Source: Deltaproteobacteria bacterium (GTDB lineage: Bacteria; Desulfobacterota; Desulfobacteria; Desulfobacterales; Desulfatirhabdiaceae). From it: a stretch of 64,000 nucleotides of DNA. The stretch is from the NCBI GenBank assembly GCA_016219185.1, contig JACRBZ010000061.1, positions 1 to 64,000 of the forward strand, written 5' to 3'. Made by a program: the position numbers and the translations under genes. How positions within the stretch are numbered: the stretch's first letter is position 1; each line of letters begins with the position of its first letter. Below, one piece after another: positions 32,303-60,904 of this stretch. The notes beneath the pieces are model-generated. The model did no database searches. It saw only the letters and a list, made by a program, of their open reading frames with translations, and was not told the DNA's origin.

Positions 32303-33133
32303 TTAAAAAACAAACAAATCCGCACCACCGGTCACAGACATTTCTGCTCCGGTGATGTAGCTCGCTTCTCGCGAGGCCAGAAAAACCACGGCTGATGCGA
32401 TTTCTTCCGGCTTTCCCAGCCTTTTCATGGCGATTCGATTCTTGATTCTTTCCAGCATTTCCGGCTTATGCAGCATGATGGCATCCGTTTCGATGAATCC
32501 GGGGAGAAGGGCATTGACGGTGATCCCGTATTTGGCGCCTTCAAGCGCCACAGATTTGGTTAGCCCGATTATGCCGGCTTTGGATGCCCCGTAGCCCGGT
32601 TGGGCGAAGGCGCCGCTGAGCCCCACAAAAGAAGAGATGTTGATGATCCGTCCCCATTTCTGATTCATCATGTGCGGCCAGACCTCACGGATGCAATTGT
32701 ACACCCCGGTCAGGTTAACCTTCAAATCCCGATCCCACATCCGATCGGTCTGGTTTTCCAGCAATGCCATATTGTCCATCACCCCGGCATTGTTGACCAA
32801 TATATCGATTCTGCCGAACTTTTCCACCACTTCAGCGATAACTTTTAGAATCTCATCCGGTATGGTGACGTCCATTTTAAATATAAGACTTTCAGACCCC
32901 ATTTTTCGGATTTCCTCGGCAGTAGACTCTGTTTTTATGCCACCGGTTTCAGCAAAATGGACTGCCAGGCGACTGTATTGAGCCAATTCGGCTTTGTCGA
33001 TTTTTTCATTTTCAACCAAAAGATCGGTGACCACCACACGCGCTCCGGCGCTTCCCAGCGCCAGCGCGATCACACGCCCCAGTCCCCGCGAAGCCCCTGT
33101 AACCAGCGCAACCTTGCCTGTAAGAGAGAACAT
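32303..33133 (-). CDS. Short-chain dehydrogenase/reductase
   Basis: A 276-aa SDR with the nucleotide motif TGASRGLGR (about residues 13-21), NNAG (about 115) and the catalytic S of INISSF with Y and K of YGASK. It oxidises or reduces a hydroxyl/keto group, probably on an acyl-CoA or cyclic intermediate, with NAD(P). An insertion (about residues 40-70) is longer than in FabG. It is the first gene beyond the tRNA scar. The adjoining 306-base gap 33134-33439 holds no gene; a short decayed frame (QARHLIAHGFPENIVAGIL on the minus strand) is the only coding-like trace. Confidence 0.88.
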   Translation of the reverse strand: MFSLTGKVALVTGASRGLGRVIALALGSAGARVVVTDLLVENEKIDKAELAQYSRLAVHFAETGGIKTESTAEEIRKMGSESLIFKMDVTIPDEILKVIAEVVEKFGRIDILVNNAGVMDNMALLENQTDRMWDRDLKVNLTGVYNCIREVWPHMMNQKWGRIINISSFVGLSGAFAQPGYGASKAGIIGLTKSVALEGAKYGITVNALLPGFIETDAIMLHKPEMLERIKNRIAMKRLGKPEEIASAVVFLASREASYITGAEMSVTGGADLFVF

Positions 33134-33439: not shown

Positions 33440-33958
33440 TCATTGTTTCGACGGAGGCACGACAATGACTGGAACCGATGAAAGTTTCAGAACGCCTTTG
33501 ATAATTTTTGATACAGATGCACCCGAAAGAATACTTTTATGTGAGCTGAGAATAATCAGATCGCTCTCTTTTTCTTTCGCGGTTAGAAGTATTTCTTTAG
33601 CCACTTCGCCTTTTCTGACCAGGATTTCATCAGGTTGCAGGAAACAGCCTGGGTTACCGCTCATCATATTCTCGCAAAACTTTGATAATGCAGATTCGAT
33701 GATTTTGCTTTCTGCTCGTTTGCCGATCAAAACCGACCGGGCATCCTTTTCATATTCACGCATGATCTCATCATAGCTCGTTTCGCCCAGTAGGTTTTTC
33801 ACCTGCATTTCCAAATTGATGGGTGGAGATTGAATTACATTAAGTAATGTGATGGTTCCCTGACATGCCACGGCGAGATTGACTGCATAAAAATAAGAAT
33901 TTCGGCACTCTTTTGACAGATCCGTTGCAAAAAGAATTTTTCTAATATCTCTTACCAT
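33440..33958 (-). CDS. Universal stress protein (UspA family)
   Basis: A 172-aa single Usp domain. It starts RKILFATDLS. The late glycine loop that binds ATP in some members is degenerate here (SSHKSILSGASVSKIIKGVL), though the SV.V(V)PP end is typical. An insertion around residues 50-90 lengthens it beyond the usual 140-150 aa. It is monocistronic; GAGGTATGAT precedes the ATG. It sits between the SDR and the methyltransferase operon and is probably a general stress or energy-state protein. Confidence 0.85.
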   Translation of the reverse strand: MVRDIRKILFATDLSKECRNSYFYAVNLAVACQGTITLLNVIQSPPINLEMQVKNLLGETSYDEIMREYEKDARSVLIGKRAESKIIESALSKFCENMMSGNPGCFLQPDEILVRKGEVAKEILLTAKEKESDLIILSSHKSILSGASVSKIIKGVLKLSSVPVIVVPPSKQ

Positions 33959-34128: not shown

Positions 34129-34923
34129 TCATGACAAGAGACCGGATCGACATGCTTTCGTATAATTGCGGCAGAAGCGGTCTTGCCCGAGTATCAGTTG
34201 CGTGGCCAGCAATATCTCCCGCATGGTCGGTTCGGTCGGATCGATGATGGCTGAATCCATGCCGGCTGCTAAAGCAAGAGTCAGAAATGTCCGGTTGATG
34301 AGCGCACGTTTGGGAAGCCCGAAAGAGACATTGCTCAACCCCATGGTAATATGGACACGGGGAAATTCTTCACAAACCCGGCGGATGACATCCAATGTCG
34401 TTTTTCCCGCATCTCCATCTGTTGCGATCGACAAAATCAAGGGATCTATGTAAAGTTTTTCATCCGGCAGCCCTTGCTCCCGGGTCAGCTTGATCATGCT
34501 CCGGATGACTTCAAGCCGTTTATCGGCTGTTTTTGGGATGCCGCCTTCATCCAAAGCCAGGGCAATCAACTCGCAGCCGTGTTCTGCTGCCAGCGGCAGA
34601 ACATCGTTCAGTCTTTTCGGCTCGCCACTGATGGAATTGATCATCGGCGTTTGATTCACCTCTTTAAGCGCAGCCCTCAAGGGTTCAGGTCGCGAACTAT
34701 CCAGACACAACTTTACATTCACCGCATTTTGAACGGTATGAACCAGCCATACGAGATCCTCAGTTTCATGATCTGGTGTACTTCCCGCATTGATATCGAG
34801 AAAATCGGCGCCGCATTCAATCTGGGCCTTTGCCAAAGCAATGATAACTTCGGCATTTCTTGTAACAATGGCGGCAGCGACCGATTTTCGGGTTCCGTTA
34901 ATTTTCTCTCCAATGATTTTCAT
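34129..34923 (-). CDS. Methyltetrahydrofolate-corrinoid methyltransferase (O-demethylase MT II)
   Basis: A 264-aa pterin-binding TIM barrel. It opens IIGEKINGTRKSV and carries FLDINAGS, LDSSRPEPL, NSISGE and GLSNVSFGLP, the signatures of AcsE/MetH-like methyltransferases. In O-demethylase systems MT II moves the methyl group from the corrinoid protein to tetrahydrofolate. It is the last gene of a minus-strand string in which the activator, MT I and the corrinoid protein lie directly upstream; the activator stop is five bases before its ATG. This completes the four-component set. Confidence 0.88.
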   Translation of the reverse strand: MKIIGEKINGTRKSVAAAIVTRNAEVIIALAKAQIECGADFLDINAGSTPDHETEDLVWLVHTVQNAVNVKLCLDSSRPEPLRAALKEVNQTPMINSISGEPKRLNDVLPLAAEHGCELIALALDEGGIPKTADKRLEVIRSMIKLTREQGLPDEKLYIDPLILSIATDGDAGKTTLDVIRRVCEEFPRVHITMGLSNVSFGLPKRALINRTFLTLALAAGMDSAIIDPTEPTMREILLATQLILGQDRFCRNYTKACRSGLLS

Positions 34924-34928
34924 TTATG

Positions 34929-36788
34929 TCATCCTCTATCCATTTTTTTGATTTTGCCCTGAACGCAAGGGACAAAACGCATCGTCCGAACAAGGAGGCG
35001 GGTAAACTGCGCGTCGGTGGCCAATTCGATGTGTCGCGATCGAAGGGCGATTTCAGCCGCACGCTTTCTCTCCTGCCTTGAAATCAGCGTCAGGGCAGCG
35101 CCCACTACCGCCGCGTTTCCGGCCCGGACGAAACGGGCCTTGGGTAAATCCGGCAGCAGCCCGATTGAAAGCGCGCTATCGATATTCAGATAAGATCCGA
35201 ATGCACCGGCCAGATACACATCCCCCACCTCATCGGCCGGCGTAGCGGTCTTTGCCAGTAGTGTCCGGATACCTGCCTGGATCGCCCCCTTGGCAAGCTG
35301 AACTGCGGAGATGTCTTTTTGCGTCAGCAAGATATCCCGGCCGGTTCCGCCGGATTTCTCCGGAACAAGAACAAACGCCGCACCATTCGGCCCTGATCGG
35401 ATATGTTGATGGGTCGTTTTTAAATGCCCTCTTTCATCGATCACTCCGATACGCAGCAGCTCGGATATGGCGGCCACCAGGCCTGATCCGCACAAGCCCA
35501 CGGGAGGCTCTCCGTTTACAGTGCCGACGATCGGCCCATCGGCAGTAATACGAAACGTTTCTATCGCTCCGGACGCAGCCCGCATCCCATCATGAATATG
35601 CGCCCCTTCAAAAGCGGGACCCGAGGCACAGGACAAGACAAAGATCCCGCCGTTCGGACCCGGTTTGGCCAGAACAATTTCCGTGTTCGTGCCGATGTCC
35701 ACGCCAAGCGTCGAACCGGAACATCGATCGAGACCGCAGGCAAGAATCATCGCGACATGATCTCCGCCGACAAATCCGCCGATACAGGGCAGCACCGACA
35801 CCCTTGCACCAGGGGCACTTTTCAGGCCCAGCTCCGGAGCCATCATTTCCAGGGGTGTTGAAAACCCTGCAATGTAGGGCGCCCGAGCCAGCGGTTCAGG
35901 CGGCAACCGCAGCAGAAGATGGCTCATGGCCGTATTTCCGCAGAGAGTGATCTCCATAATCCGGTCAGCAGACACGCCGCCTTGATCACAAAGATTTTTT
36001 ACCAGACAGTTGAGCGCGTTAATGAGTAAACGCGCCAATATCCGGCCGCCGTTTTCTTTCTGAATGGCGTAGTTCAAACGGCTGATAACGTCTTCTCCAT
36101 AAGAGATCTGAGGGTTTACCATGCCCGCGGCGGAGATTTCCTTTCCAGACTCAAGGTCTATAAGCAGCCCGGCAATTTTGGTTGTACCCATGTCAACAGC
36201 GATGCCCATCGGCGACTCGCCTATTGGCGCTACTCCCACCGGAGCACCGTCGCACAGATAAACCGCCAGGCGCCAATCCGAAGATCGGGCAACCTTGGAT
36301 AAGCGGCGAACAAAATCAGGGTGTAACTGCCATCCATTTAAACATTCGAAAGGAGGCAAGGCATCGAACAAACGTGTCACATCCGATCTTTGATCCGTCA
36401 AGGAGGGGCAGGACAGCTCAACATTGACCACGGAATAGCGATTATCGCCTTCGGGCGGTCGCTTACGCCCTTGCAGTTGAAGTCTTTGATCATAGGCCCG
36501 GGAAGAGTTTGGGATGTGTATTTTAACATCGCCGCAAAGTCTTGTCAGGCACGCCAGGCGCTGCCTGCCTGAAGCCCGGTTATGCTCAAGGACGCTCAAC
36601 TCATCCCGATTCGGCGGCGACACTTGTCCTGAAAGCACTTCAACCCTGCAACGGCCGCAGGTACCTCTGCCGCCGCAGTCCGATGATATCGCCACCCCGG
36701 CCTGGCGCGCTGCCTGGAAAACAGATATTCCAACAGCGGCTTTCACCCTTCGGCCAAGCGGCTGAAATTCGGCAACGAGCTTATCCAT
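34929..36788 (-). CDS. Corrinoid reductive activator (RamA-like, 2Fe-2S plus ASKHA ATPase)
   Basis: A 619-aa activating enzyme. An N-terminal plant-type ferredoxin domain has CGGRGTCGRC, with the fourth Cys in LACLTRLC. A linker follows, then an actin-like ATPase region (VDMGTTKIAGLL, GVDIGTNTEIVL) with the conserved FEGAHIHDGMRA (the DUF4445-type C-terminal half). Such proteins use ATP to reduce Co(II) back to Co(I) after accidental oxidation of the corrinoid. It begins two bases after the MT I stop, so coupling is tight. Confidence 0.9.
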   Translation of the reverse strand: MDKLVAEFQPLGRRVKAAVGISVFQAARQAGVAISSDCGGRGTCGRCRVEVLSGQVSPPNRDELSVLEHNRASGRQRLACLTRLCGDVKIHIPNSSRAYDQRLQLQGRKRPPEGDNRYSVVNVELSCPSLTDQRSDVTRLFDALPPFECLNGWQLHPDFVRRLSKVARSSDWRLAVYLCDGAPVGVAPIGESPMGIAVDMGTTKIAGLLIDLESGKEISAAGMVNPQISYGEDVISRLNYAIQKENGGRILARLLINALNCLVKNLCDQGGVSADRIMEITLCGNTAMSHLLLRLPPEPLARAPYIAGFSTPLEMMAPELGLKSAPGARVSVLPCIGGFVGGDHVAMILACGLDRCSGSTLGVDIGTNTEIVLAKPGPNGGIFVLSCASGPAFEGAHIHDGMRAASGAIETFRITADGPIVGTVNGEPPVGLCGSGLVAAISELLRIGVIDERGHLKTTHQHIRSGPNGAAFVLVPEKSGGTGRDILLTQKDISAVQLAKGAIQAGIRTLLAKTATPADEVGDVYLAGAFGSYLNIDSALSIGLLPDLPKARFVRAGNAAVVGAALTLISRQERKRAAEIALRSRHIELATDAQFTRLLVRTMRFVPCVQGKIKKMDRG

Positions 36789-36790
36789 GC

Positions 36791-37924
36791 TTAAACAGTT
36801 CCAAATTCGTGACTCGCAGCCACAAATGCCTCCATATTTTCCGGTTTGGCATTCAGGGGCGCATCACACCCCGGAGCCAGGAGCAGCCCTTCGGGACCCA
36901 CATCCCGAACCAGATCCCGAATATAGTTGCGGACATCATCGGGAGTTCCGGATGAAAAAATGGCTGCCGGCACATCGCCCATAATGGCAGTATGGTCTTT
37001 TAATATTGTTCTGGCTTTACGAATGTCAGTCATCCCGTCCGGATTCAGGATGCATTTTTTTGCGGGTAACTCAAGAAGTCGTCCTAAATCGCGGCCCCAA
37101 TCCTGATCCCAGTGAAACACCGGGGTAATACCGCTGGCGATCAATTCTGAGGCGACTTTGAAGAAGTATGGCCAGACAAAGCGATCCCAGAGCTTCGGCG
37201 CCAGCATGGCACTGGCCGTACGCCATCCGCCGACCCAGACCGAAGGCACTCCGGTCACGTTGACGGCGCTTTTGGCAATCTCGATAGAAAATGGGAGCAT
37301 GACATCCATGGCTGCCTGCACCTTGTCCGGCATCCGATACAGGTCAAAGTAAAATTTTTCCATGGACCGGGCACCGCAAAGGGATTCAAAAGGGATGGAA
37401 GTGGCACTTGAGGCTACGATGCCATATCCTGCTTCGCGAAATTTCCCGGCTACCTGACCCGCCCCGGTCTGGCACCATGCCATATGCGCTTCCATGAGCT
37501 TCATGTCGCATACCTGGGGTAAAAGCTTTTGGGCAAGCGCGTCAATGCCTTTATCGATAACAAGATCGTAGTCATCCACCGTCATGGTTTCTTTCTCATG
37601 GACCTGCCAGAGGGCATCCGCATCCAGATCAATCCCTGGGATCAATACCTTGGAAAACCACGCACCCGTCAGCGCCATGGGAACGATGCCAAACGGCATG
37701 AGGTTGATTCCATCCACATCTCCCAGGCGCGTCATTGCCGCAATGGTGACATCGACCGCTGCATCAGGATCCAAACAGAATTGATGTTGGGTCATTCCCA
37801 TGTATCTCGGGGCAAAAGCCGTGCCCATAAAAATACACGGCACCCGATCGATCAGCTCAAAATTGATAGCGCTTTGAATACGGGTCCATCGCTGTTTGTA
37901 GTACTTTTCGTTTTCATCTCTCAT
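36791..37924 (-). CDS. UroD-family corrinoid methyltransferase (MT I)
   Basis: 377 aa from the ATG at 37924, which overlaps the corrinoid-protein stop as ATGA with AAGGAG before it; the longer track start is rejected. The fold is the uroporphyrinogen-decarboxylase barrel used by MtaA and by O-demethylase MT I enzymes. Candidate zinc ligands are His in FHWDQDW and Cys in APGCDAPLN near the C terminus. It should take a methyl group from a methoxylated or other methylated substrate onto cobalt. The substrate is not readable from sequence; the coupling to a hydrophobic-compound transport string hints at an apolar methyl ether (inference). Confidence 0.85.
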   Translation of the reverse strand: MRDENEKYYKQRWTRIQSAINFELIDRVPCIFMGTAFAPRYMGMTQHQFCLDPDAAVDVTIAAMTRLGDVDGINLMPFGIVPMALTGAWFSKVLIPGIDLDADALWQVHEKETMTVDDYDLVIDKGIDALAQKLLPQVCDMKLMEAHMAWCQTGAGQVAGKFREAGYGIVASSATSIPFESLCGARSMEKFYFDLYRMPDKVQAAMDVMLPFSIEIAKSAVNVTGVPSVWVGGWRTASAMLAPKLWDRFVWPYFFKVASELIASGITPVFHWDQDWGRDLGRLLELPAKKCILNPDGMTDIRKARTILKDHTAIMGDVPAAIFSSGTPDDVRNYIRDLVRDVGPEGLLLAPGCDAPLNAKPENMEAFVAASHEFGTV

Positions 37925-38544
37925 GATAACCACTCCTTTGCCATGCGTACGGCCGCCTGAGCGTCCGCGCCCCATTGATCCGCGCCGGTATAATTGCATA
38001 CACTCTGATCGACTGGCCCGCCGCCGATCATGATTTTCACCTTATCGCGCAGGCCCGCAGCCGCAAAGGCTTCCACAGTGGCCTTGATGGAATCGAATGC
38101 AACCGTCAGCAGCGCGGAGAGGCCCACCACGGTTGCACCGGTTTCTCTGACCGCTTCGACAAACCGTTCCGGCGGCACATTGACACCAAGATCGGTGACT
38201 TGCATGTTAGCCGACTTGAGCATGCCAACCACAAGATCCTTGCCGATATTATGAATATCGTCTCTGACCGTACCGATAACCACCTTTCCGATGGTTGGCC
38301 CCGAGCCGCCTTTCATCATCGGCTCCAGCAATTCACTGATCTGCTTAAAAATCTCACCGGCCATCATCAGATCGGATATATAATAGGTTCCCTGCTCGAA
38401 TTTTTTGCCGACGCCTATCATTCCCTGCTGGCTGGCGGATATGATTTCATTGGCATTCACACCCTCTTTAAGTTGCTGTTTGACCAATGCCAAGACAGCA
38501 TCTTCCTCCAGATCTTCCATTAGTTTTATAACTTGATTGTCCAT
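37921..38544 (-). CDS. Corrinoid methyl carrier protein (MtbC/MtaC-like)
   Basis: A 207-aa protein. The N-terminal helical cap (about 1-85, with GMIGVGKKFEQGTYYISDLMMAGEIF) precedes the B12-binding Rossmann domain with the cobalt-ligand motif DDIHNIGKDL and later GLSALLT and GGGP. It shuttles the methyl group between MT I and MT II. It ends inside the MT I start (ATGA overlap), so equal expression is likely. No cobalamin riboswitch was recognised upstream; the next gene is only 17 bases away. Confidence 0.92.
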   Translation of the reverse strand: MDNQVIKLMEDLEEDAVLALVKQQLKEGVNANEIISASQQGMIGVGKKFEQGTYYISDLMMAGEIFKQISELLEPMMKGGSGPTIGKVVIGTVRDDIHNIGKDLVVGMLKSANMQVTDLGVNVPPERFVEAVRETGATVVGLSALLTVAFDSIKATVEAFAAAGLRDKVKIMIGGGPVDQSVCNYTGADQWGADAQAAVRMAKEWLS

Positions 38545-38561
38545 ACACGGTCACCTCTTTT

Positions 38562-39239
38562 TTACTTTGAAAAAAACATATCATACGTCACTTCATTGCC
38601 AGAGGGCACAACAAGAAATTCATCACACCCATCATTAAAGGCTCCGGCTTTCATTAATCTGTCAAAAAGCGATGCCTCGCCGGTGATCTCTTCGTATTTC
38701 AATCCGAATCTATTCGCCTTTTCCCTGGCATAAGTACGGTACGCTGAGGAATTTTCCCGGCAATCCGTCTCAATGAATGCCAGACGGGTGTAGTTGTGAA
38801 GCAGCTCTCTCATTAACCGATCCGCCCGTTTCTGGCCAAAACGCTTCATCATATACGCATATTCCTCAAATGGGGTACTGCCGACATCAATCCATCCCTT
38901 ACTGAGAAAAAACGTTCCCGGCTCTTTTCTTATCTGATCAAGATGGCCTGCCCGGGATCCCAGAAAAATACCGATGCAGTCATCTACCCTTGGAATAATC
39001 ATTCTTGCGTGGTTTGACTGCAGACCTTCCACGGCACGGGAGCAAAGACCATACCCTAAAAGAAGGGTGCCGTATTGTCTCTCCTGCTGGTCGATGACGT
39101 CTTGAATTGCTTTTCTCAGCCGGTCAGGATAAACATGCAGGGCGGGGTTAAGCACAAAAAGCGGCAGATTTTCCGGAATCCGGCATCTCATCTCCTTTAC
39201 GACCACCTCACATGCGATCAGGAGGGTATTTGCATCCAC
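38562..39239 (-). CDS. DUF1638 protein
   Basis: A 225-aa protein recognised as DUF1638 from the start LLIACEVVVKEM, the YGLCS motif (about residue 62), PRVDDCIGIFLGS and the end FLVVPSGNEVTYDMFF. The family is often encoded beside corrinoid methyltransferases, but its biochemical role is not established. Several conserved Cys and His residues suggest metal binding. It lies 17 bases upstream of the corrinoid-protein gene and 15 after the unknown 129-aa gene, all in one string. Confidence 0.82.
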   Translation of the reverse strand: MDANTLLIACEVVVKEMRCRIPENLPLFVLNPALHVYPDRLRKAIQDVIDQQERQYGTLLLGYGLCSRAVEGLQSNHARMIIPRVDDCIGIFLGSRAGHLDQIRKEPGTFFLSKGWIDVGSTPFEEYAYMMKRFGQKRADRLMRELLHNYTRLAFIETDCRENSSAYRTYAREKANRFGLKYEEITGEASLFDRLMKAGAFNDGCDEFLVVPSGNEVTYDMFFSK

Positions 39240-39254
39240 CCGTTTTCCTTTGAA

Positions 39255-39644
39255 TTAAAGCCGATTCACAAAAGATATCGCTGATTTTCCAAGTAGTTCG
39301 ACATCGATTATCGATTCGGAGAGCAGATCCCTGATCCGTTCAGCCGAAATACCAAAGACAAGTATATTCAGCGCAAGAAATATAGCGTCCGCAGCCCCAC
39401 GGATATGCCCCTGACTATCGGCGGGGCGGCCGTCTCCCGTGGCACTCACGCGAAGATAAGATTCTTCCGGTCCAGTCGCAAATCCTTTGATATGGCCGAT
39501 CAAGGCGTGTTTTTCGGACAGGCACCGCGTGGCTAACGTATCGAACAGGCCGGTCGCCGTGTCGGTAAATACATCCACCGATTCATTATGGGATTTGCTT
39601 AACCGAAGCATCACGGCAACCGGTTCGAATTTTAACGCATCCAT
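39255..39644 (-). CDS. Unknown 129-aa protein coupled to the CobW-like GTPase
   Basis: I do not recognise this family. It has no membrane segment and no cysteine cluster. The middle (KHALIGHIKGF, SYLRVSATGDGRP) looks like a compact alpha/beta domain. Its ATG lies inside the last codons of the GTPase gene (13-base overlap), so it is translated with it. The position between a CobW-type metallochaperone and DUF1638 in a corrinoid operon suggests an accessory role in loading or repair of the corrinoid or zinc site (inference). Confidence 0.7.
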   Translation of the reverse strand: MDALKFEPVAVMLRLSKSHNESVDVFTDTATGLFDTLATRCLSEKHALIGHIKGFATGPEESYLRVSATGDGRPADSQGHIRGAADAIFLALNILVFGISAERIRDLLSESIIDVELLGKSAISFVNRL

Positions 39645-40231
39645 GGCAGCAGTTTTCTGATTATCCGCGGTTCGATCGCATCACGGGCGCAGAGGGTATC
39701 AACCGGCACCGAAGGGCTGAGCCGGCTGATCGTCTCGAAAGCAAAGGCCATCTCTTCGGGCGATGCCACGTCAGCCTTATTGACCAACACCAGATCGGCC
39801 TGTTGAACCGTAGTGGTGATCAGCGGACTCAGCACCACCATCAGCATGGTAAGACGCAACGGATCAAGAAGCGCAACCCGGATCAGGCTCTTAAAATACA
39901 CGCCATGATACGTGTTCAAAACATTCATCAGATTTCGCGGATCTGCCGCACCGGTAGGTTCCAAAAGAACAAGATCAGGATCAAAATCCGCCTTGACCCT
40001 TTCCAGTGTCCCAATCACGTCTCCGGCCAGTGAGCAGCAGATACACCCGCCCAGGAGTTCCCAGACATTGTGCCCGAGGCGCCGCATTAACTGGTTATCG
40101 ATACCGATTTCACCAATCTCATTGACTAAAATAGCCACTTTACGTTCGCTACCTCGCGCCAGTTCCGCCAAACGTAATAGTAAGGTGGTCTTTCCACTGC
40201 CCAAGAATCCTGTGACGACCAGAAGATGCAT
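39632..40231 (-). CDS. CobW/HypB-like P-loop GTPase (metallochaperone)
   Basis: 199 aa from the ATG at 40231, which shares one base with the RND stop (TGATG); the track start 27 residues earlier is not needed. The P-loop is GFLGSGKTTLL, followed by VNEIGEIGID, the metal-binding GCICC motif (CxCC) and VNKAD. It is shorter than CobW/YjiA (about 320 aa) and lacks their C-terminal domain, closer to HypB/UreG in size. It probably delivers cobalt, a corrinoid or zinc to the methyltransferase set downstream. Confidence 0.88.
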   Translation of the reverse strand: MHLLVVTGFLGSGKTTLLLRLAELARGSERKVAILVNEIGEIGIDNQLMRRLGHNVWELLGGCICCSLAGDVIGTLERVKADFDPDLVLLEPTGAADPRNLMNVLNTYHGVYFKSLIRVALLDPLRLTMLMVVLSPLITTTVQQADLVLVNKADVASPEEMAFAFETISRLSPSVPVDTLCARDAIEPRIIRKLLPWMR

Positions 40232-42624
40232 CAGGCTCTTAATTTTCGGTAATTTGGTTTTAAGAAGCAAGCAAGCGATGGCAGCAGGATCAATGATCCC
40301 ACCATATTCCAAAGAAACATGAACGACAGCATTATGCCCATGTCCGCCTGGAATTTAATGGGCGAAAAGGCCCATGTTGCCACGGCGACAGCAAATGTGA
40401 CCCCTACCAGCATCACCACCTTTCCGGTAAACAATAGCGACTGGTAGTAGGCTTCACTCAGACTTTTTCCAATCGCCAAATACACCAAGATGACACTTAA
40501 CAGATATAGTGCGTAATCCACTCCGATGCCGACACCTAGCGCGATGACCGGAAGTGTCGATACTTTAACGCCTATTTTTAACCATACCATGAGGGCTTCC
40601 GCTAAAATAGAGGTCAACATGAGTGGCAGAACAGCGCAAAGCACGGCACGCCAGGAACGAAATGTAATAAAGCAAAGCACGATGACCGCCGCGTATACCA
40701 GATACAACATTTGGCGGTTGGCTTTTGTAACAACGATGTTGGTGGCTGCGTTAATCCCCGCACTGCCGGCGGCCAATAAAAACGTCGCGCTTTCAGAATT
40801 GTTCTTTTCGGCAAATTCCGTCACGGTATCGACCACCCGAGTCAATGTATCCGCCTTATGATCGGAAAGATAGGCATAGACCGGAACGAGGCTGCAGTCT
40901 TCGCTATACATGGTACGGGGCGCCGGGTAGGCTATCGAATTAATCATTTGCTGATTACGCAGCAGTTCGTACCATTTGATGTTGCCTTCGTTAAAACCGA
41001 ACAGCATTTGGCGATTGTAAAGCGCAAGCGATTTGGTGGATTCCACCCCCTTCACTTGTCTCAATATCCATTCCAGTGCATCCACCCGCATCAGTGTGTC
41101 GTATTTTGTACAAGCATCCGGGGGTGTTTTCACCATGACCGCGAACACGTCGCTGCTGGCCCCGTAATTATCAGTCATGAACTTGGCGTCGCGGTTATAG
41201 CGGGAGTCCGCCCGGAGTTCGGGCGCTCCGGGATCGAGATCGCCGATCCTGAGATCACGTCCGACCATAAGACCCATTGCGGCCAGCACAATGCTGACAA
41301 CAATGGCCGTGGCGGCCCACTTGGGTTTCGTGAAAAGATCAAGAAAATACCATAACAGGTGTTTTCTTTCCCCCAACAAGCCAGCTTTTTCAGTCTTGAG
41401 GCTCCGTTCCGCCGCTTTCGTGTTGACGCCGGTATAACTTAACAGTATCGGTAACAGAATCAGATTGGTGACTATCAGCGATGCAACTCCGACACTGGCG
41501 ATGATCGCAAGTTCCTGAATCACCTTGATTTGAATAATGATCAGAACAGCAAAGCCCGCAGCATCGGACAACAATGCAGTCAGCCCTGGCAAAAACAGCC
41601 GCCTGAATGTATGCCTGGCTGCGACCAACTTGTCAGATCCCCGACCGACGTCCTGCATGACGCCGTTCATCTTCTGTGCCCCGGTGCTCATACCGATTGC
41701 AAACACCAGAAAAGGTACCAGTACCGAGTATGGATTCAGATCATATCCAAGCATGAACGAGATGCCAAGCTGCCAGACAACGCCAATCAATGAACATACC
41801 ATGACCAGGATTGCGCTTCGCAAACACCGTGTGTACCAAAAAAGGACAGTCGCAGAAATGAACACCGCGACACCGAAGAAGAGCAGAATGGCTCGAATAC
41901 CTTCGATAAGATCGCCCATCACTTTTGCGAATCCCGTAATATAAAGCTTTATGGTATGGGTCTGATACTTGTTTCTGATCTCCTCCAACCGGACCGAAAG
42001 TGCTGCATAGTCCAAAGGTTTTCCTGTCTCCGAATCCAGCGACCTCAATGGCACGTAGATGACGCTTGATTTGTTGTTTGCCGCCACCAGTTGACCTATT
42101 TCCCCGGATCGCTCAACATTCCGACGGACCAACTCCACGCTTTGCTCGGATCCATCATATGTACTGGGAATCACCGGACCGGCCTCAAACCCTTCTTCCG
42201 TTACACCGACCCAACGGGTCGACGGCGTCCAGAGGGATTTCATAAAATTACGGTCGACACCGGGCAGAAAAAACAGATCATCGCTTATTTTTTGTAGAGT
42301 GTTCAGGTATACCGAGCTGTAGATGCTATCATCGGTGGTTTCTACGGCGATGGAGACAGCGTTCCCGAGCCCTTGCAGTTCATTCTGGTGTGCGAGAGAG
42401 TTGGCGACAAAGGGGTGGCCGGTAGGAATCGTCTTTTCGAAACTCGCATTGAGATTCAGATGAGTGGCCTGAAAGGTAAGAAAGATTGTAATCAAAAAAC
42501 ATAATATAAGAACCACTGTCCGATTATTGAAAAGAATCCTTTCGGGAAGTGAACCGGACATCACGTCAAATTCCGCCAGGGAAAATTTATCAGCTTGCGT
42601 AGCTATTCCATTATCTGCTTTCAC
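40231..42624 (-). CDS. RND/MMPL-family transporter
   Basis: A 797-aa membrane protein with a GTG start at 42624 that overlaps the upstream stop as GTGA; GGAGG precedes it. Two repeats each have a large periplasmic loop and a six-helix bundle. Helix 1 is VVLILCFLITIFLTF; the middle bundle is at about 235-400, and the C-terminal bundle at about 635-780 holds VIALGVGIGVDYALYL. This is the MMPL/HpnN-like branch that handles lipids and other hydrophobic molecules. Encoded with DUF1302, DUF1329 and YCF48-like partners, it forms a known envelope set found in degraders of steroids and other apolar compounds. Confidence 0.88.
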   Translation of the reverse strand: MKADNGIATQADKFSLAEFDVMSGSLPERILFNNRTVVLILCFLITIFLTFQATHLNLNASFEKTIPTGHPFVANSLAHQNELQGLGNAVSIAVETTDDSIYSSVYLNTLQKISDDLFFLPGVDRNFMKSLWTPSTRWVGVTEEGFEAGPVIPSTYDGSEQSVELVRRNVERSGEIGQLVAANNKSSVIYVPLRSLDSETGKPLDYAALSVRLEEIRNKYQTHTIKLYITGFAKVMGDLIEGIRAILLFFGVAVFISATVLFWYTRCLRSAILVMVCSLIGVVWQLGISFMLGYDLNPYSVLVPFLVFAIGMSTGAQKMNGVMQDVGRGSDKLVAARHTFRRLFLPGLTALLSDAAGFAVLIIIQIKVIQELAIIASVGVASLIVTNLILLPILLSYTGVNTKAAERSLKTEKAGLLGERKHLLWYFLDLFTKPKWAATAIVVSIVLAAMGLMVGRDLRIGDLDPGAPELRADSRYNRDAKFMTDNYGASSDVFAVMVKTPPDACTKYDTLMRVDALEWILRQVKGVESTKSLALYNRQMLFGFNEGNIKWYELLRNQQMINSIAYPAPRTMYSEDCSLVPVYAYLSDHKADTLTRVVDTVTEFAEKNNSESATFLLAAGSAGINAATNIVVTKANRQMLYLVYAAVIVLCFITFRSWRAVLCAVLPLMLTSILAEALMVWLKIGVKVSTLPVIALGVGIGVDYALYLLSVILVYLAIGKSLSEAYYQSLLFTGKVVMLVGVTFAVAVATWAFSPIKFQADMGIMLSFMFLWNMVGSLILLPSLACFLKPNYRKLRA

Positions 42625-43817
42625 ATTGCCCCTCCAGCCTTTCCATCATTGTTTTGTGACAAAGGGAATTGTCTTACCCCTCCCACTCCTACGACTACGA
42701 ACGACCCATCCAGCAGCTGGATCAAGGAAGCAGTTTGCACCATACGAGGCCCGTCCAATACAGACAGCGCCTGATCCTGTTCACGACCCCTTAAAATATC
42801 TCCAGCCTGGTTGGCAAGAAATATGTAACCATCTGTACCGGTAATAGATGCGCTGAATGAAACGGGAACAGGAACATCGATGCGTGTGAAATTTTCGTTC
42901 TGATCATCATACCAATATGCATTTCCGTTCATCCCGGCGATTAATAGTCTTCCCGATTGAGAGACCACTGAGCAAAAATAACTTCCCCGATACGGTGTCA
43001 CGATTCGTTTGAAAGTTTTTCCGCCATCCTTGGAGCAACAAAACAGCCCCTGTTCGCCGGCTAAGAAAATCAAATCGTCGATGATCTGAATTGTATAGAA
43101 ATGAAAACCATTTGGGTTGTCAATCCGGTTCACCCATGAAGTCCATGTCGCTCCGCCGTCCAGTGTGTGAAAAACAAGTCCGAATGCACCGACAATAATC
43201 CCTTCTTTTTCATTTTTAAATTTAAGATCCAGAAAAGGCTTGTCCGCCCCCTCATCAACGAGGGTGTGAGCGGCAGCAGAGTGACTTTTCGCAGTCTCAT
43301 TGTCGGCCCCCATACGTTTAAGATCGGACTGAGCTGCCTCAAACGCAATTCGCGCTGCGACCATGCCGTCCAGTTGACGCACCCAGGTTTCACCACCGTC
43401 TTTTGTATGTAGGACAATTCCGGAATGGCCTACAACCCATCCCTGGGTTGAAGATGGAAAATCCACCGAAATTAACGAAACGCTGGTCGGAACTTTAGCC
43501 TGGCGCCAGGTTTTCCCGTTATCATCCGAGAGAATGACTATCCCGCGCTCTCCAACAGCAACTATCCTGTTACCCGCTTTTGCGATATCAAGCAGCACGC
43601 TTCTTTCGGGTTGATGTACCAGCATGGCGGGTCGATCCAAGAGATCGACCTCCCCATTCGGTGAAATACGGGTGTAATTCCGGTCAAGTCCGCCCAGAGC
43701 GGAGGGCTGTTCCAGCGGAGCGGCAACCGCCGTGGAAAAACCAATTATCAACGCCATACAACCGCAAATCAGCCCTCCAAAATTGGATTTTTTACGTTGT
43801 TGTATTGAATTTTCCAC
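42621..43817 (-). CDS. Exported YCF48/BNR-repeat propeller protein
   Basis: 398 aa from a GTG at 43817 with AAGGAG seven bases before it; GTG and the upstream TAG share a base. An N-terminal export signal (KKSNFGGLICGCMALIIGFSTAVAA) is followed by several beta-propeller repeats of the photosystem-assembly YCF48 type (VILSDDNGKTWRQ, VLHTKDGGETWVRQ, VFHTLDGGATWTSW, FCCSKDGGKTFKR). It is probably periplasmic, a partner of the RND pump. The track start, 24 residues earlier, ignores this ribosome site. Confidence 0.85.
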   Translation of the reverse strand: MENSIQQRKKSNFGGLICGCMALIIGFSTAVAAPLEQPSALGGLDRNYTRISPNGEVDLLDRPAMLVHQPERSVLLDIAKAGNRIVAVGERGIVILSDDNGKTWRQAKVPTSVSLISVDFPSSTQGWVVGHSGIVLHTKDGGETWVRQLDGMVAARIAFEAAQSDLKRMGADNETAKSHSAAAHTLVDEGADKPFLDLKFKNEKEGIIVGAFGLVFHTLDGGATWTSWVNRIDNPNGFHFYTIQIIDDLIFLAGEQGLFCCSKDGGKTFKRIVTPYRGSYFCSVVSQSGRLLIAGMNGNAYWYDDQNENFTRIDVPVPVSFSASITGTDGYIFLANQAGDILRGREQDQALSVLDGPRMVQTASLIQLLDGSFVVVGVGGVRQFPLSQNNDGKAGGAM

Positions 43818-45187
43818 TATCGAACTCCTTCTCCCGCCATGGCATCCGGCGTGAAGACACTGTCGGGATAAGGCGGCATAACCTTCCACTGCTCCGCTTT
43901 TCCGGCCATAACCACATTGATGAAAAAGCTTCCCCCCAACAAATCATAATACCCCCATGATTGATTCACAGTTGCCGGAATATCAGGTGCTGAAATGGGA
44001 ACGGAAATAAGCATCCGCCAAAGTTGTCCTTTTGCATCCCAGCGATCCGCGAGCACTGCGGTCCAGGAATCCTCGTCAATGTAGTATCGTGTTTTATGTG
44101 AAGTGTGCCGCTGTCCCTCTTTAAGAACTGCTTCAACAACCCATACCCGATGCAGCTCCCAGCGAAGATGATCCGGATTTATAAAATGGTCCGAGAAAAC
44201 ATCTTCTGCCTTTCCCGGTTCATTAAACTTGTTCGAATTGTAAGGAATGAACATTTCCTTTTTTCCAACGATATTCCAATCAAATCGTGGAATCGTTTCG
44301 GTTGTTAAAAATATGTCGACCTCATCAAAAGATGACATGCCGGCGGAAAAAGGAGTGGGGGTGTCGCAACAGGAAAGCGGAAGCTTTCGTACGCGTCTTT
44401 GGCCCGTAATATAGACCCACGTCGAAGTCTTATCCAGTACCTGACTGATCCGGCCCGTAATCGCTTCGCCGGTTCGTATCGGCGGCCCGGTGTTTATGGA
44501 ACGGACCAGATAATATAACCCATCGTATGAATCCAGAGAACCGCTTGAAAGATAGTACGACGACTGCTGATCATTCTTCGATTCAAGAAGCATCACGAGT
44601 TTTCCGGTATCGGTTCCCATCCATCCGGTGAAATCCGTATGCCAGGCCGTACCACGCCACCGCAGAAGATGGTTCCATATTACTTCCTTACCGGATTGGG
44701 GAACTGGGAACGGTGTCCCTCCATACACTTTTACCGGCACATCCCCGTTCATTTCGCCCCGGGTCGCATTTAAATATGTATTGTCGTAAACCCACTGTGG
44801 TGCCGCATGGGTACGGTGGGTCGGATAGATATCAATCTGATAGGTATCTGGATACTTTTTGAGCATCGCCTTTGTCCCTTCGTTGAGCTTATCCGCATAT
44901 TGATCCATGTTCACGGCTTTAATCGAATAAAGCGGTTTTTCATTGGGAAAAATATCAGGCCGTTTACCACCGTTAACAAATCCGGGTGCCGTTTTGGTAA
45001 GGCCTCCATCCCATGCCGGAATGGTGCCTTCCTTGTTGCCCGCTTTTTCCGCTCCCAAGGGAGTCAAAGTAGATTTTAACCGCTCTGCTTCCTGGGCTGA
45101 AACCCCGCAAAAGGCGGTGTCGCAGGAGATTGCCGCCAGTAATCCACAAAATACGCTGATAAATAATAATTTATAATGTTGTTTCAT
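43817..45187 (-). CDS. DUF1329 periplasmic protein
   Basis: 456 aa from the ATG at 45187 behind GGGGAG. The signal peptide KLLFISVFCGLLAAISC is followed by the mature start SAQEAERLKSTLTPLGAEKAGN, typical of DUF1329. The family has a LolA/LolB-like half-barrel and is thought to bind lipids or apolar solutes between the membranes. TRYYIDEDSWTAVLADRWD in the last quarter is also typical. It sits between the DUF1302 barrel and the YCF48/RND genes, all in one orientation. Confidence 0.87.
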   Translation of the reverse strand: MKQHYKLLFISVFCGLLAAISCDTAFCGVSAQEAERLKSTLTPLGAEKAGNKEGTIPAWDGGLTKTAPGFVNGGKRPDIFPNEKPLYSIKAVNMDQYADKLNEGTKAMLKKYPDTYQIDIYPTHRTHAAPQWVYDNTYLNATRGEMNGDVPVKVYGGTPFPVPQSGKEVIWNHLLRWRGTAWHTDFTGWMGTDTGKLVMLLESKNDQQSSYYLSSGSLDSYDGLYYLVRSINTGPPIRTGEAITGRISQVLDKTSTWVYITGQRRVRKLPLSCCDTPTPFSAGMSSFDEVDIFLTTETIPRFDWNIVGKKEMFIPYNSNKFNEPGKAEDVFSDHFINPDHLRWELHRVWVVEAVLKEGQRHTSHKTRYYIDEDSWTAVLADRWDAKGQLWRMLISVPISAPDIPATVNQSWGYYDLLGGSFFINVVMAGKAEQWKVMPPYPDSVFTPDAMAGEGVR

Positions 45188-45295
45188 AAGCTTTCTCCCC
45201 AATAGCCTTAAAATGTTAATTACACTTCCATATTTTTTGACTCAAATATCATATCATGAGCTATATGTGCTTGATCCCATAGGTTAATTGCAGGG

Positions 45296-47008
45296 TTAGA
45301 ATGTACGGTAGATTGAAAACGCTATAAAATCACGGTCCGCATACGTTTGATCAAATGTGAAATGATTATTCAAATCAAGAAGTGTATCGGTTGATCCATA
45401 AAAATGGGTATACGTAAGACTGGCTCTCCAAACATCCCAAAAAGTTACCTTAATCCCTATGTTCATGTCTCCTCCCTGGTCCGGTCCAAAGCTGGCGACC
45501 ACGGATGAAGAGCCTTTCGGGAAATAGGAAATACCGACCGGAACACTGATATCAAATCCGGAAAAGACTTGCCGATACTTCGGTTCATAAACCATACGAA
45601 TACCATATGCATCCGTTGAAGTATTGGGATCCAGTGCTTGAGGGTTTTTAGTTATTTCCGTTCGTGTGTTGTAAGCAATTTCACCTAAAAAATCAGCCTC
45701 CTGTGCAATAAAAGAGGGTTCCATGCTGGCTAACCATGATAACTGAGCATGAAAAGAATTACCTACCGCATACAACGGATTCTTATCATTGTCCGCGTTC
45801 GTGCCTGCCGCAAAGACTTGAAGATCGCTTACCAGCGGAGTGTTTCGGCGAATCGATGCCTCGGCTGCCAGATTGACGAATCCGAACGTGGTTGTGGCAC
45901 TCATGCCATATGCTTCAATATTTTCTGGATAGACCAGAAAATATTCACCAATTTTTCCGATGGCTGGATTAAAATTCGATGGGTCCAGCACCAGCGGTCC
46001 GCCCGGTGTATCCACAACGCTCAATCGTCCATAAAGCTGCGGCGTTTTATCGTGATACCGGATGGCATAAAGGCCCAAATCGTAATCAGCAACCCGGTAT
46101 CGAACCTGAACGCCGCCCTGTCCAGAATCTTCCGCATCCAGATCGTTACCCCTGTAGAAAGCAGCAGCTTCTCCTCCCGGCATCAGGGGAGGGCCGGTAA
46201 ACAGACGCTCCCCTCCGGTACCCACAATATCGATATTACCGAAATAACTATCAATCGCCGGTAATCGCGATTTTTCCCAGGCTAACTGGTAGTAGACCCC
46301 CACCGAAAAACGCGGACCGAACTGAATTTGGCCAGAAACTTGCGGAACCGGACGAATCAGTTCCTTGAACTGCGTGTTGGGCACTGAAAGCAATTTTACG
46401 GCATCGATGGGAGCCATGCCGCCAGCAATCCCATTGTTTCCGAAAAAGAGACTTTCACCCCATTGCATCGCATATTGCCCTGCCCGAAACGTCATCGAAT
46501 TATTACTAAAATCGTGTTTTCCAAAAACAAATGCGTCCAGAATCTCGGCATCACGTCCATGCAAATCTCTTGTATTCTTTGTAAACGCGTTGCTGGGGAC
46601 GGAAAAAGCATTCACCGTTCCAGGCGAATCATTGCCGTTGCTCTTGTTATATACATCATCGTACCAGGCGGACGCACTTACCCGTGCGCCCCATCCCTTA
46701 TACAGGATATCCATTTCTGATAGTAGATCGAAGCGATTGGATATCAGACCTCTGCTAAACGCCCGGTCGCCGTCATCCTGATTTGGGCTGGAAATCAGCT
46801 CATTTGACGCTGATCCGACTCGCCAGGCCGCACTGTATTTGGCTGTATTATCCCACCGGATCGTCAAATCCGGATTGCCGGTGTCGATATTAAATGCACG
46901 GGCGGATGAGGTGATTATCATGCATACAATTAAAACCGAGCCTAGAATTGTCAGCGCCTTCTGAAAAATTCGAAATCCCGAAATTGGAACGGCCATCGGT
47001 TTACTCAT
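45296..47008 (-). CDS. DUF1302 outer-membrane beta-barrel protein
   Basis: 570 aa from the ATG at 47008 with AGGAGG nine bases before it; the track start lies 107 codons upstream inside the MFS gene and is wrong. The signal peptide ends at SSARA. The mature start FNIDTGNPDLTIRWDNTAKY is the hallmark of DUF1302. Alternating polar/apolar strands and the terminal aromatic (IYRTF) indicate an outer-membrane barrel. It probably admits or exports the hydrophobic substrate together with DUF1329 and the RND pump. Confidence 0.88.
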   Translation of the reverse strand: MSKPMAVPISGFRIFQKALTILGSVLIVCMIITSSARAFNIDTGNPDLTIRWDNTAKYSAAWRVGSASNELISSPNQDDGDRAFSRGLISNRFDLLSEMDILYKGWGARVSASAWYDDVYNKSNGNDSPGTVNAFSVPSNAFTKNTRDLHGRDAEILDAFVFGKHDFSNNSMTFRAGQYAMQWGESLFFGNNGIAGGMAPIDAVKLLSVPNTQFKELIRPVPQVSGQIQFGPRFSVGVYYQLAWEKSRLPAIDSYFGNIDIVGTGGERLFTGPPLMPGGEAAAFYRGNDLDAEDSGQGGVQVRYRVADYDLGLYAIRYHDKTPQLYGRLSVVDTPGGPLVLDPSNFNPAIGKIGEYFLVYPENIEAYGMSATTTFGFVNLAAEASIRRNTPLVSDLQVFAAGTNADNDKNPLYAVGNSFHAQLSWLASMEPSFIAQEADFLGEIAYNTRTEITKNPQALDPNTSTDAYGIRMVYEPKYRQVFSGFDISVPVGISYFPKGSSSVVASFGPDQGGDMNIGIKVTFWDVWRASLTYTHFYGSTDTLLDLNNHFTFDQTYADRDFIAFSIYRTF

Positions 47009-47043: not shown

Positions 47044-48309
47044 TTATTTTGTTTTGGAAAGGCCGAATACTGCGGGCGATTTCAGAAACGGCGTGAGAAG
47101 AAACCCTATCAGGCCCACACACCCAACTATCAGAATCGAAACCAGATAGCTGTTTGTTTGACGCAAAGACATCGCACCGAGGATCACCCCCGCCGTGCCA
47201 CCAAAGGTACCGACACCGACCCACAAGCCTACAACCTTTCCTGTGACATGGGGAGGGTAGTGAGTTGCAACAAAGGCCATGGCATTGGGTACGATCCATG
47301 CCATGAAAAAGCCCGCTATCATCAGGCATGCCAACAGCATCAGGCGGTTGGAGGTCACGAACGGAAGCTTGATCGATACGGAAAATACCGCGAATACCAG
47401 AAACCCGATTGCAATCGAGGGTTTTGTTCGACCCTGGAAGACCTTCTTAAGAATGAAACCCGCGGCCACTGCGCCGACCATGGATGCAATAGCGACACCC
47501 AACATATACTTGCCGGCCAGTACCGGACCAAAATCCATGCCAAGGGGTGAATCAACCGCCAGGTACGCCGGCGTCAGATTATTGAAGACATTCAGGACCC
47601 ACATGTAACAGAATACCAGAAGCACACCGATCCAAGTGGCTTGTTGCTTCAATACCAAGCGCACATCACTCACTCCCTCGTTGTTTGCTTCGTACTGGCC
47701 TTCCCGCGAGAAGGGCGGGGTCGGCTTTTTCGCCAGGGTGACGGCTATGGTCACAGCCAGCGCAATCAGCCCCGCTACAGACATCCATGATAGGGCCTCT
47801 CGCCAGTTTCCGCTCGCTTCGAAGATTGCCGGAGCAATCACAAAACCCAGCGCAATTCCCAAGGATACCGACATACCCTGAAACCCTGCCACGATCCCTC
47901 TCTCCAGAACAGGAAACCACAGAGATGCAAGGGGTGACACAAGAGCGAGGATCGGTCCCGCCCCCATGGCCTGAAATATCCGAATCACCATCGCACCCCG
48001 AAGCGTGTCGCCGAAATAGGGCATGGCGAGGGTGGGTAAGATCAACATAGCAAGGCAGAAAAGGAAAATCGGTATCAGACCCAAACGGTCGCATACGATA
48101 CCCCCGCATATACAGGAGATAGCCACGACCAAGTTGAACACGCCCATGAAATTGGCAGTGGCCGCTCCAAGGCTGAGGCCCAAATCTTTTGCGATGACCC
48201 CCATCAAGGAAGCCGGAGATATCATAACCATGGTCGATGCGGCGGTGATGAGACACAGATCGATCAACATTAACCATCGGAATTTGGGGTAGACTGCGCA
48301 ATCTTTCAT
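47044..48309 (-). CDS. Major facilitator superfamily transporter
   Basis: A 421-aa protein with twelve predicted helices. The loop motif between helices 2 and 3 is GGIVCDRLGLIPIF (the GxxxDRxG form), and a charged cytosolic loop (about 195-215) separates the halves. AAGGAG lies before the ATG. It is the first gene of the transport string that continues into DUF1302, 35 bases on. It resembles oxalate/formate- or aromatic-acid-type MFS carriers; the substrate is unknown. A plausible role is inner-membrane uptake of an acid or ether substrate. Confidence 0.88.
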   Translation of the reverse strand: MKDCAVYPKFRWLMLIDLCLITAASTMVMISPASLMGVIAKDLGLSLGAATANFMGVFNLVVAISCICGGIVCDRLGLIPIFLFCLAMLILPTLAMPYFGDTLRGAMVIRIFQAMGAGPILALVSPLASLWFPVLERGIVAGFQGMSVSLGIALGFVIAPAIFEASGNWREALSWMSVAGLIALAVTIAVTLAKKPTPPFSREGQYEANNEGVSDVRLVLKQQATWIGVLLVFCYMWVLNVFNNLTPAYLAVDSPLGMDFGPVLAGKYMLGVAIASMVGAVAAGFILKKVFQGRTKPSIAIGFLVFAVFSVSIKLPFVTSNRLMLLACLMIAGFFMAWIVPNAMAFVATHYPPHVTGKVVGLWVGVGTFGGTAGVILGAMSLRQTNSYLVSILIVGCVGLIGFLLTPFLKSPAVFGLSKTK

Positions 48310-49927: not shown

Positions 49928-50941
49928 CTATACTTTCACGCGTCGCTTGGATGTATCAATTCCCAAAAGTTTGCCGAGGTTTTCTCCGAAAATCTTCCGA
50001 CGGTCATCGTCCGTAAGTTCGGGATAACCATAACTCTCCTGCATATCTTTGGGAAATTGAAAATTCCGGAGACCCTCTACGCCGAGCTTGTACTGCCAGG
50101 CAAAACCCACATAGTCGATGCCCCAGATAATTCGGTCAGTTCCCACACATCGAATAGCCTCGCCAAGGATTTTGGCAAACTTTCTTGGTGCACTGAGTGC
50201 CCATGGCACCAAAAGGCTCAGGCTCGGGTACACATTCGGATGACTCATAGCGACCATGTTTAGATCATCACAGTACGGATATCCCATATGAAAGGCGACT
50301 ATCTTTAACTCGGGAAAATCTCGGGCAACATCATCCAGTTGAATGGGCAGTGCGTACTTGCTCTTTCCGGGCGGCACCCATGAAAATCCTGTATGAATGT
50401 CCAACACGATCTTAAGTTCCTGGGCCTTCTCATACATGGGCCAGAGATCGGGATCATTCATGTAAGTGTCCTCCGGGGAATAATACTTAAAAATTTTTGC
50501 CCCCTTTTCCTTGACCCAATACTCCATTTCCCAAATGACATTCTTGACTCCTCTAAATTTAATCGGAGAAAGGTTGGGTTGATACATAAAGCGGTCCGGA
50601 TGCGACTCCACAACCTTCGCCATATCCTCATTGGTAAACCATCGCGAGGTGTATTTAACGGTTTCCATCATGGATTCAGGAAGCAGGCAGGCGATATCGA
50701 TTCCATATTTGTCCATAACCGCAATATAGGACTCAGGGTCCGTGTTTTTCACAAAATCATCGGGTCCAAGACCTTCCATGGCACTCTTCGGCATTCCGGT
50801 CTGGAAGGATCTTGTGATGCCTTCTACGGCCTTCCACCACATCTGAACCCCGGGATAGTGTTTTACCGCCGCCATATCGCCCACAAGGTGGCATTCCGGG
50901 TCTATTTTGAAGAATTCGTCCTGTTTAAATTCCTTTGTCAC
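49928..50941 (-). CDS. Amidohydrolase-2 family protein (ACMSD-like barrel)
   Basis: A 337-aa metal-dependent TIM-barrel hydrolase or decarboxylase. The N-terminal metal site reads IDPECHLV, where many relatives have D-x-D/H-x-H. Then come DIHTGFSW (about 180), AFHMGYPYC (about 215) and the late Asp in WGIDYVGF. Relatives decarboxylate aromatic acids or open rings. An ENLGKLLGID end is typical. It is encoded between the flavoprotein and the OYE-like gene, all minus strand, so it is probably a step in breakdown of the same compound. Confidence 0.82.
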   Translation of the reverse strand: MTKEFKQDEFFKIDPECHLVGDMAAVKHYPGVQMWWKAVEGITRSFQTGMPKSAMEGLGPDDFVKNTDPESYIAVMDKYGIDIACLLPESMMETVKYTSRWFTNEDMAKVVESHPDRFMYQPNLSPIKFRGVKNVIWEMEYWVKEKGAKIFKYYSPEDTYMNDPDLWPMYEKAQELKIVLDIHTGFSWVPPGKSKYALPIQLDDVARDFPELKIVAFHMGYPYCDDLNMVAMSHPNVYPSLSLLVPWALSAPRKFAKILGEAIRCVGTDRIIWGIDYVGFAWQYKLGVEGLRNFQFPKDMQESYGYPELTDDDRRKIFGENLGKLLGIDTSKRRVKV

Positions 50942-53397: not shown

Positions 53398-53500
53398 GGG
53401 GATAATCCTCCTCCTTTCACTCCGTGGAAACATTTGATTGCGTCGGCCGGCAAACCATACTGCCAGACACTGCCACGCAAATCGCATCGACTGATAGGAG

Positions 53501-53956: not shown

Positions 53957-53976
53957 CAGCTCTCTCCCTTGTCGTG

Positions 53977-55173: not shown

Positions 55174-55281
55174 GAATCTCTCCTTGATTATTGTTTCCGA
55201 ATTAAATAGAGCATTCCACATATACTTTATTTAATTTAGACCCGATTTATTTATTCATAGTTTAAAATGAATTATAAAATA

Positions 55282-57146: not shown

Positions 57147-57174
57147 AATGTATTCAAATAACAAGGAGAATGTC

Positions 57175-60903: not shown

Positions 60904-60904
60904 G

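Follow-up and report, generated by a model that had tools for sequence, protein, structure and literature searches.

Three described systems resemble parts of the locus analysed here, a gene run on the minus strand of a 64,000-nucleotide stretch of DNA (positions 1 to 64,000 of contig JACRBZ010000061.1, assembly GCA_016219185.1, from an anaerobic deltaproteobacterium of the Desulfatirhabdiaceae, probably related to Desulfobacterales sulfate reducers; hereafter the window). One is the tetrapartite envelope cassette AmeABCD, whose deletion in Castellaniella defragrans lowers tolerance to apolar monoterpenes and increases Nile Red accumulation (PMC6394551). A related cassette, the 'Nanopod' cluster, is highly expressed in Ca. 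Anaerobenzenivorax, a methanogenic benzene-degrading member of the Desulfobacterota, and also contains a universal stress protein (Usp) gene (PMC13101534); a passage of that paper cites impaired growth of Delftia on phenanthrene after deletion of DUF1329. Both cassettes occur in degraders of apolar compounds and combine a DUF1302 or porin-like protein, a DUF1329 protein, a YCF48 protein and an HAE3/MMPL RND transporter. The O-demethylases MtvABC, Odm, Vdm and MtoABCD consist of a UroD-superfamily methyltransferase I (MT I), a corrinoid protein, a methyl-pterin methyltransferase II (MT II) and an activator of the RACo type, that is, a reductive activator of the corrinoid protein (PMC8630106, PMC13222342). 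Finally, the estrogen methyltransferase EmtABCD ties a corrinoid methyltransferase to the degradation of apolar compounds (PMC7448270).

The window holds the four genes of the envelope cassette on one strand, in the order DUF1302-DUF1329-YCF48-RND, and a corrinoid methyltransferase set directly behind them. Corrinoid genes have not been described for AmeABCD or Nanopod, whereas here the RND gene overlaps the CobW gene that leads the corrinoid operon. Compared with MtvABC, Odm, Vdm and MtoABCD, the MT I of the window belongs to a small, putatively separate clade, and the locus adds DUF1638, CobW and a GHIK-motif protein as well as the joined pump. In contrast to EmtABCD, whose catalytic subunit is MtmB-like and methylates from S-adenosylmethionine (SAM; PMC7448270), the window has an MT I of the UROD family (PF01208) that is not MtmB-related. 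In open-licence full texts, none of the matches listed was seen to combine YCF48, DUF1302 or nanopod genes with corrinoid genes. Each module is known; their combination is undescribed in the literature searched, and rare. An earlier, sequence-only reading of this DNA knew of no described system with this layout; only the pairing is new, because the envelope half has already been published as AmeABCD (PMC6394551) and Nanopod (PMC13101534).

One run of genes from the outer-membrane protein to methyltransferase II

The run extends from 47008 down to 34129, and its parts were identified by Pfam and NCBIfam profile matches:

45296..47008, minus: DUF1302 outer-membrane porin-like protein (AmeA type); PF06980, 394 bits; ATG with AAAGGAGG upstream
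43817..45202, minus: DUF1329 periplasmic protein (AmeB type); PF07044, 372 bits
42621..43817, minus: YCF48-like periplasmic protein (AmeC type); PF14870; GTG start overlapping the DUF1329 stop
40231..42624, minus: HAE3-like RND transporter (AmeD type); MMPL; 12 predicted hydrophobic transmembrane segments; best NCBIfam match TIGR00921 HAE3 at 140 bits, below the cut-off of 352
39632..40231, minus: CobW/COG0523 GTPase, 199 aa; PF02492; G domain only; CICC metal motif; TGATG overlap with RND
39255..39644, minus: 129-aa protein with GHIK motif; possible detached CobW C-terminal domain; no Pfam family
38562..39239, minus: DUF1638 protein, companion of B12 reactivation; PF07796; Phaeobacter genetics (PMC5764234)
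37921..38544, minus: corrinoid protein; B12-binding domains; DIHNIG, SAL and GG motifs; best solved match 4jgi
36791..37924, minus: UroD-family MT I (substrate demethylase); PF01208; AlphaFold UroD fold
34929..36788, minus: RACo-type reductive activator of the corrinoid protein; PF14574/PF17651/Fer2; 3zyy, E=1e-97
34129..34923, minus: MT II, methyl-tetrahydrofolate (methyl-H4F):corrinoid type; Pterin_bind/PRK07535, 322 bits against a cut-off of 259; 4o0q, E=6e-60

The RND pump, the CobW GTPase and all four demethylase parts claimed by the sequence-only reading are thus present on the minus strand at these positions, and the tight coupling that it claimed is borne out. Between DUF1329 and MT II, neighbouring genes either overlap by 1 to 13 nt or stand 2 to 17 nt apart. 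The 129-aa gene behind CobW was not among the parts listed by the earlier reading. As read from the sequence, genes overlap at DUF1329/YCF48 (TAGTG, 1 nt), YCF48/RND (ATGTGA, 4 nt), RND/CobW (TGATG, 1 nt, a single base belonging to both the stop of RND and the start of CobW), CobW/129-aa gene (13 nt) and corrinoid protein/MT I (ATGA, 4 nt); MT I probably starts at ATG 37924, not at the start of the longer mechanical open reading frame. Gaps separate the 129-aa gene from DUF1638 (15 nt), DUF1638 from the corrinoid protein (17 nt), MT I from RACo (2 nt) and RACo from MT II (5 nt). The envelope half and the corrinoid half are physically coupled.

The earlier reading was to be given up if internal terminators or promoters separated the two halves, or if no other genome had the combination. 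No terminator-like site lies in the junctions from DUF1329 to MT II, all matches being intragenic, and a second genome, described below, has the pairing. Terminator-like sites number 28, against 21.4 +/- 4.5 in shuffled sequence, which is near chance, and promoter-like sites are about as frequent as in shuffled sequence. Rfam and tRNA scans of the 64-kb window gave no matches. The genome assembly comprises 110 contigs, and its contamination is estimated at 5.7%.

Judged by gene content and order, the envelope half is a known AmeABCD/nanopod cassette. Ame-type RND loci number 28, in 20 of the 390 genomes of the window's order; the window genome itself carries a second cassette on contig C90 (RND 62% identical). 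Pumping could mean substrate import or export of toxic intermediates; published precedent favours export.

The corrinoid half

By its motifs and profile matches, the corrinoid methyltransferase set is complete. An MT II of the methyl-H4F type and a RACo activator stand in the same operon as MT I, the corrinoid protein has DxHxxG, SxL and GG motifs, and RACo retains its ferredoxin-type cysteines. The best solved matches to the corrinoid protein and MT II, 4jgi and 4o0q, are presumably from a Desulfitobacterium O-demethylase. As for DUF1638, Phaeobacter genetics showed that B12-dependent methionine synthesis requires it together with a RamA-like protein, and a role in B12 reactivation was proposed from that work (PMC5764234).

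What does not follow from the genes is the 'O-demethylase' of the earlier reading: the set is complete, but the methyl substrate, aryl ether or other, is not readable from MT I. An assignment of the substrate from this protein was dropped, because the nearest solved protein, a dehalogenase, is too distant. As modelled by AlphaFold (mean pLDDT 87), MT I folds into a UroD barrel; among the structures that it matches is 4ay7, a methyltransferase of Methanosarcina mazei. MT I is the sole UroD-type match at E<=1e-25 in its genome (five candidates scored). Nine family members share an invariant H269-x-D271 ... C351 (numbering from DENEKYY), which is missing from CdmB, the closest solved relative; from their position, these residues are a possible metal site. 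The zinc motif E-X14-E-X20-H, a putative feature of MT I of O-demethylases, is absent, and no weight is given to this absence.

UroD-type MT I genes of two genera, at L028:9584-10690 (G077) and L109 (G117:C2:313163-314068), carry a TGA in frame at precisely the alignment column that holds the invariant Cys351 in the window MT I (GFILAGG-TGA-EIPPNAKAET). Downstream of it the reading frame stays conserved, and both genomes have SelB; the TGA probably encodes selenocysteine at the putative metal ligand.

The CobW gene has the G domain and the CICC motif and lacks the C-terminal CobW_C domain. A fold model of the adjacent 129-aa protein (pLDDT 88) has the CobW-family protein YjiA as its top, though weak, matches in the Protein Data Bank (PDB; probability 0.98-0.99, E 0.008, TM 0.41), and a sequence-profile search linked it to no solved protein. 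Relatives of the 129-aa protein adjoin a CobW G-domain gene in L033, L034, L036, L038, L041, L042, L093 and L094, which are mostly corrinoid methyltransferase loci. The two proteins may form a split COG0523 GTPase.

Relatives of MT I and recurrence of the pairing

About 85,000 species genomes were scanned by pattern, using MT I of the window and of S2_4, a metagenome-assembled genome of the Desulfobacteraceae; this gave eight close relatives (47-57% identity), making a clade of nine genomes with the window; such a scan can miss members. A class-wide repeat gave the same genomes and no additions. The hosts are Chloroflexota, Actinomycetota, one gammaproteobacterium and S2_4. Most of these MT I genes lie in all or part of a compact CobW/129-aa/corrinoid/MT I/MT II/DUF1638/RACo module. 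In the gammaproteobacterium (L039) the gene immediately before MT I encodes MTHFR, and in one chloroflexotan (L042) FolD comes after MT II, which suggests that the methyl group is placed on folate and oxidised.

Among the eight other clade genomes, only S2_4 has Ame next to MT I, in the order YCF48-RND-CoA-transferase A and B-corrinoid-MT I-MT II-DUF1638-RACo. Its contig C242 ends 198 nt upstream of YCF48, and DUF1302-DUF1329 stand on contig C258, in front of a thiolase. The RND proteins of S2_4 and G021 share 90% identity; the G021 locus has no corrinoid set but retains the MBL and hydrolase genes found downstream. The window RND groups with that of G262, and a joint placement of the two corrinoid-linked RNDs is rejected (approximately unbiased (AU) test, p=0.0005). 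The two RNDs belong to different lineages, and therefore the pairing was assembled at least twice. A third candidate pair, in G300 (L064), was not counted: its set of UroD, B12 and activation-domain genes lies about 2 kb off but is convergent and of another type.

Two details of these loci may be added. In L021, of S2_4, the spacer between CoA-transferase B and the corrinoid gene (about 11390-11536) holds a 13-nt near-perfect inverted repeat, GAAGACTCCCTGT ... ACAGGGGGTCTTC, with no T run, possibly an operator. Between the Ame loci L021 and L058 the RND is 90% and the flanking hydrolases are 83-89% identical, and a CoA-transferase/corrinoid block lies between RND and MBL in L021 only; this looks like a natural insertion or loss of the block.

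The neighbouring acyl-CoA island

On both sides of the run lie further genes of a catabolic type:

32303..33133, minus: SDR dehydrogenase of the core operon; 60-70% identical SDRs in core loci of other genomes
33440..33958, minus: universal stress protein; PF00582; 170 nt downstream of MT II; membership uncertain
47044..48309, minus: MFS transporter; PF07690
48400..49842, minus: FAD flavoprotein, fumarate/vinylphenol reductase type; NF053717, 313 bits, below the cut-off of 600
49928..50941, minus: Amidohydro_2-family enzyme of the core operon; PF04909; E-x-H at N terminus
51102..52475, minus: flavoenzyme of the old yellow enzyme (OYE) type, relative of 2-naphthoyl-CoA reductase (NCR)/BaiCD; best PDB match 6qkg NCR; NCBIfam
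52591..55221, minus: enoyl-CoA hydratase (ECH), ChsH2-like OB protein, thiolase; same gene set in core loci
55560..60045, plus: acyl-CoA ligase, second OYE, acyl-CoA dehydrogenase (ACDH) of the core; ligase 52-60%, ACDH 43-50% identical in core loci
60857..62167, plus: MerR-TetR fused regulator typical of the core operon; PF13411 + PF00440

These neighbours are a rearranged copy of a core operon (MerR-TetR regulator, thiolase, ChsH2-like protein, ECH, ACDH, CoA ligase, OYE, amidohydrolase and SDR) found in 23 of the 390 order genomes (L066, L070-L089), with amidohydrolases mostly 63-73% identical and, next to most copies, a regulator related to the MerR-TetR fusion. Most copies come without Ame and without a corrinoid set; Ame is added in G283, and other corrinoid methyltransferase systems in G167, G334 and, at 17 kb, G089, while in S2_4 the DUF1302-DUF1329 pair precedes the thiolase of the core. 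Both order genomes with a clade MT I carry the core operon, and an MT I lies within 17 kb of the amidohydrolase more often than by chance: against 0.30 pairs expected there are 4, counting the window and three further genomes with other MT I systems. Relatives of the flavoenzymes are 2-naphthoyl-CoA reductase and, with scores below the cut-offs, BaiCD and vinylphenol reductase; the E-x-H start of the amidohydrolase is typical of decarboxylases such as LigW. Such a context of acyl-CoA, OYE and amidohydrolase genes fits a substrate acid that is aromatic or hydroaromatic and bears a side chain. The genome also encodes the acetyl-CoA synthase CdhC.

What the island may be for

We consider it slightly better than an even chance that the island serves the catabolism of a methoxylated acid, hydrophobic and probably aromatic, with the run as its transport-and-demethylation end. 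An AmeABCD-type complex would carry the hydrophobic compound through the envelope or remove it from there. Once in the cytoplasm, the methoxylated substrate would give up its methyl group, by way of MT I, to Co(I) on the corrinoid protein, from which MT II would hand it to tetrahydrofolate, while RACo with DUF1638 would re-reduce inactive Co(II), and CobW with the 129-aa protein may service the cofactor or a metal. Methyl-H4F would enter the Wood-Ljungdahl pathway, and the demethylated acid would be activated and then degraded by the neighbouring CoA-ligase, ACDH, ECH, thiolase, OYE and amidohydrolase enzymes. Gene content, gene order, overlaps, recurrence and the acetyl-CoA synthase are seen in the sequence; the substrate, the ether bond, the directions of demethylation and of pumping, co-transcription, co-regulation and the role of CobW are inferred. 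A bolder version, which we think unlikely, makes pump and demethylase one dedicated entry unit for some hydrophobic methoxylated molecule, lignan-, terpenoid- or sterol-like, beyond the described anaerobic O-demethylases, with MT I representing a new substrate class and the split CobW pair loading metal or corrinoid.

Several observations weigh against the favoured reading of a catabolic island with a transport-and-demethylation end. Ame is not required for MT I, because six of the eight other clade genomes lack an Ame RND and a seventh, the gammaproteobacterium, has it elsewhere in the genome. The pairing is known from one second genome only, S2_4, of the same taxonomic order, and there 144 nt, inverted repeat included, separate CoA-transferase B from the corrinoid gene. 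By chance, 0.20 Ame-MT I pairs within 20 kb are expected and 2 were seen, the window being one, so that the second case alone is statistically modest. The core amidohydrolase was found in none of the seven other clade genomes (S2_4 apart). The single physiological unit proposed by the sequence-only reading stands as to tight physical coupling, but both halves are detachable: most Ame loci lack a corrinoid set and most corrinoid relatives lack Ame.

The two modules might then be mobile catabolic cassettes gathered in the same islands, with no common substrate and linked by gene packing only. The scarcity of Ame among clade genomes fits this, as do the varied neighbours of Ame loci in the order, the G021 locus, with its RND so close to that of S2_4 and the same MBL and hydrolase genes, and the slightly higher G+C of the corrinoid stretch. 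However, the pairing arose at least twice, both times on the same strand and downstream of the RND, starts overlap stops in the window, and both genomes have the core operon; we regard mere packing as somewhat unlikely. A methyl donor other than an aryl ether (a thioether, amine, haloalkane or alkyl ether) would agree with the mixed substrates of the MT I superfamily and with CdmB, a chloromethane dehalogenase inactive on methoxylated aromatics. Yet the window clade keeps the H-x-D...C site that CdmB lacks, the best matches of the corrinoid protein and MT II, 4jgi and 4o0q, presumably belong to an O-demethylase, and acyl-CoA and OYE genes are fitting neighbours for the use of an aromatic or hydroaromatic acid; we hold such a donor to be decidedly unlikely. 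EmtABCD, acting on estrogens, is a precedent for a corrinoid methyltransferase that starts the degradation of an apolar ring compound, and the locus could by analogy encode a C-methylase activating a hydrophobic ring. EmtA, however, is MtmB-related and SAM-fed, whereas the window has a UroD-type MT I with a methyl-H4F MT II, and the MTHFR and FolD genes beside its relatives indicate that the methyl group is oxidised; we find this very improbable.

If the unit of pump and demethylase is real, it connects the uptake of sparingly soluble compounds, or tolerance to them, with anaerobic demethylation, which is usually studied with soluble vanillate-like acids. The MT I clade and the Desulfobacterales acyl-CoA operon would then be targets in the search for new anaerobic ether-degrading pathways.

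Elsewhere in the window, positions 162-2663 encode an 833-aa protein ending in RVAGYSAHFV that resembles a glycyl-radical enzyme (putative). Two similar gene pairs with MoxR-like AAA ATPases (4276-6850 and 16435-19020) lie around signalling genes; the partner in each pair, of 560-585 aa, is VWA-like by eye (putative).

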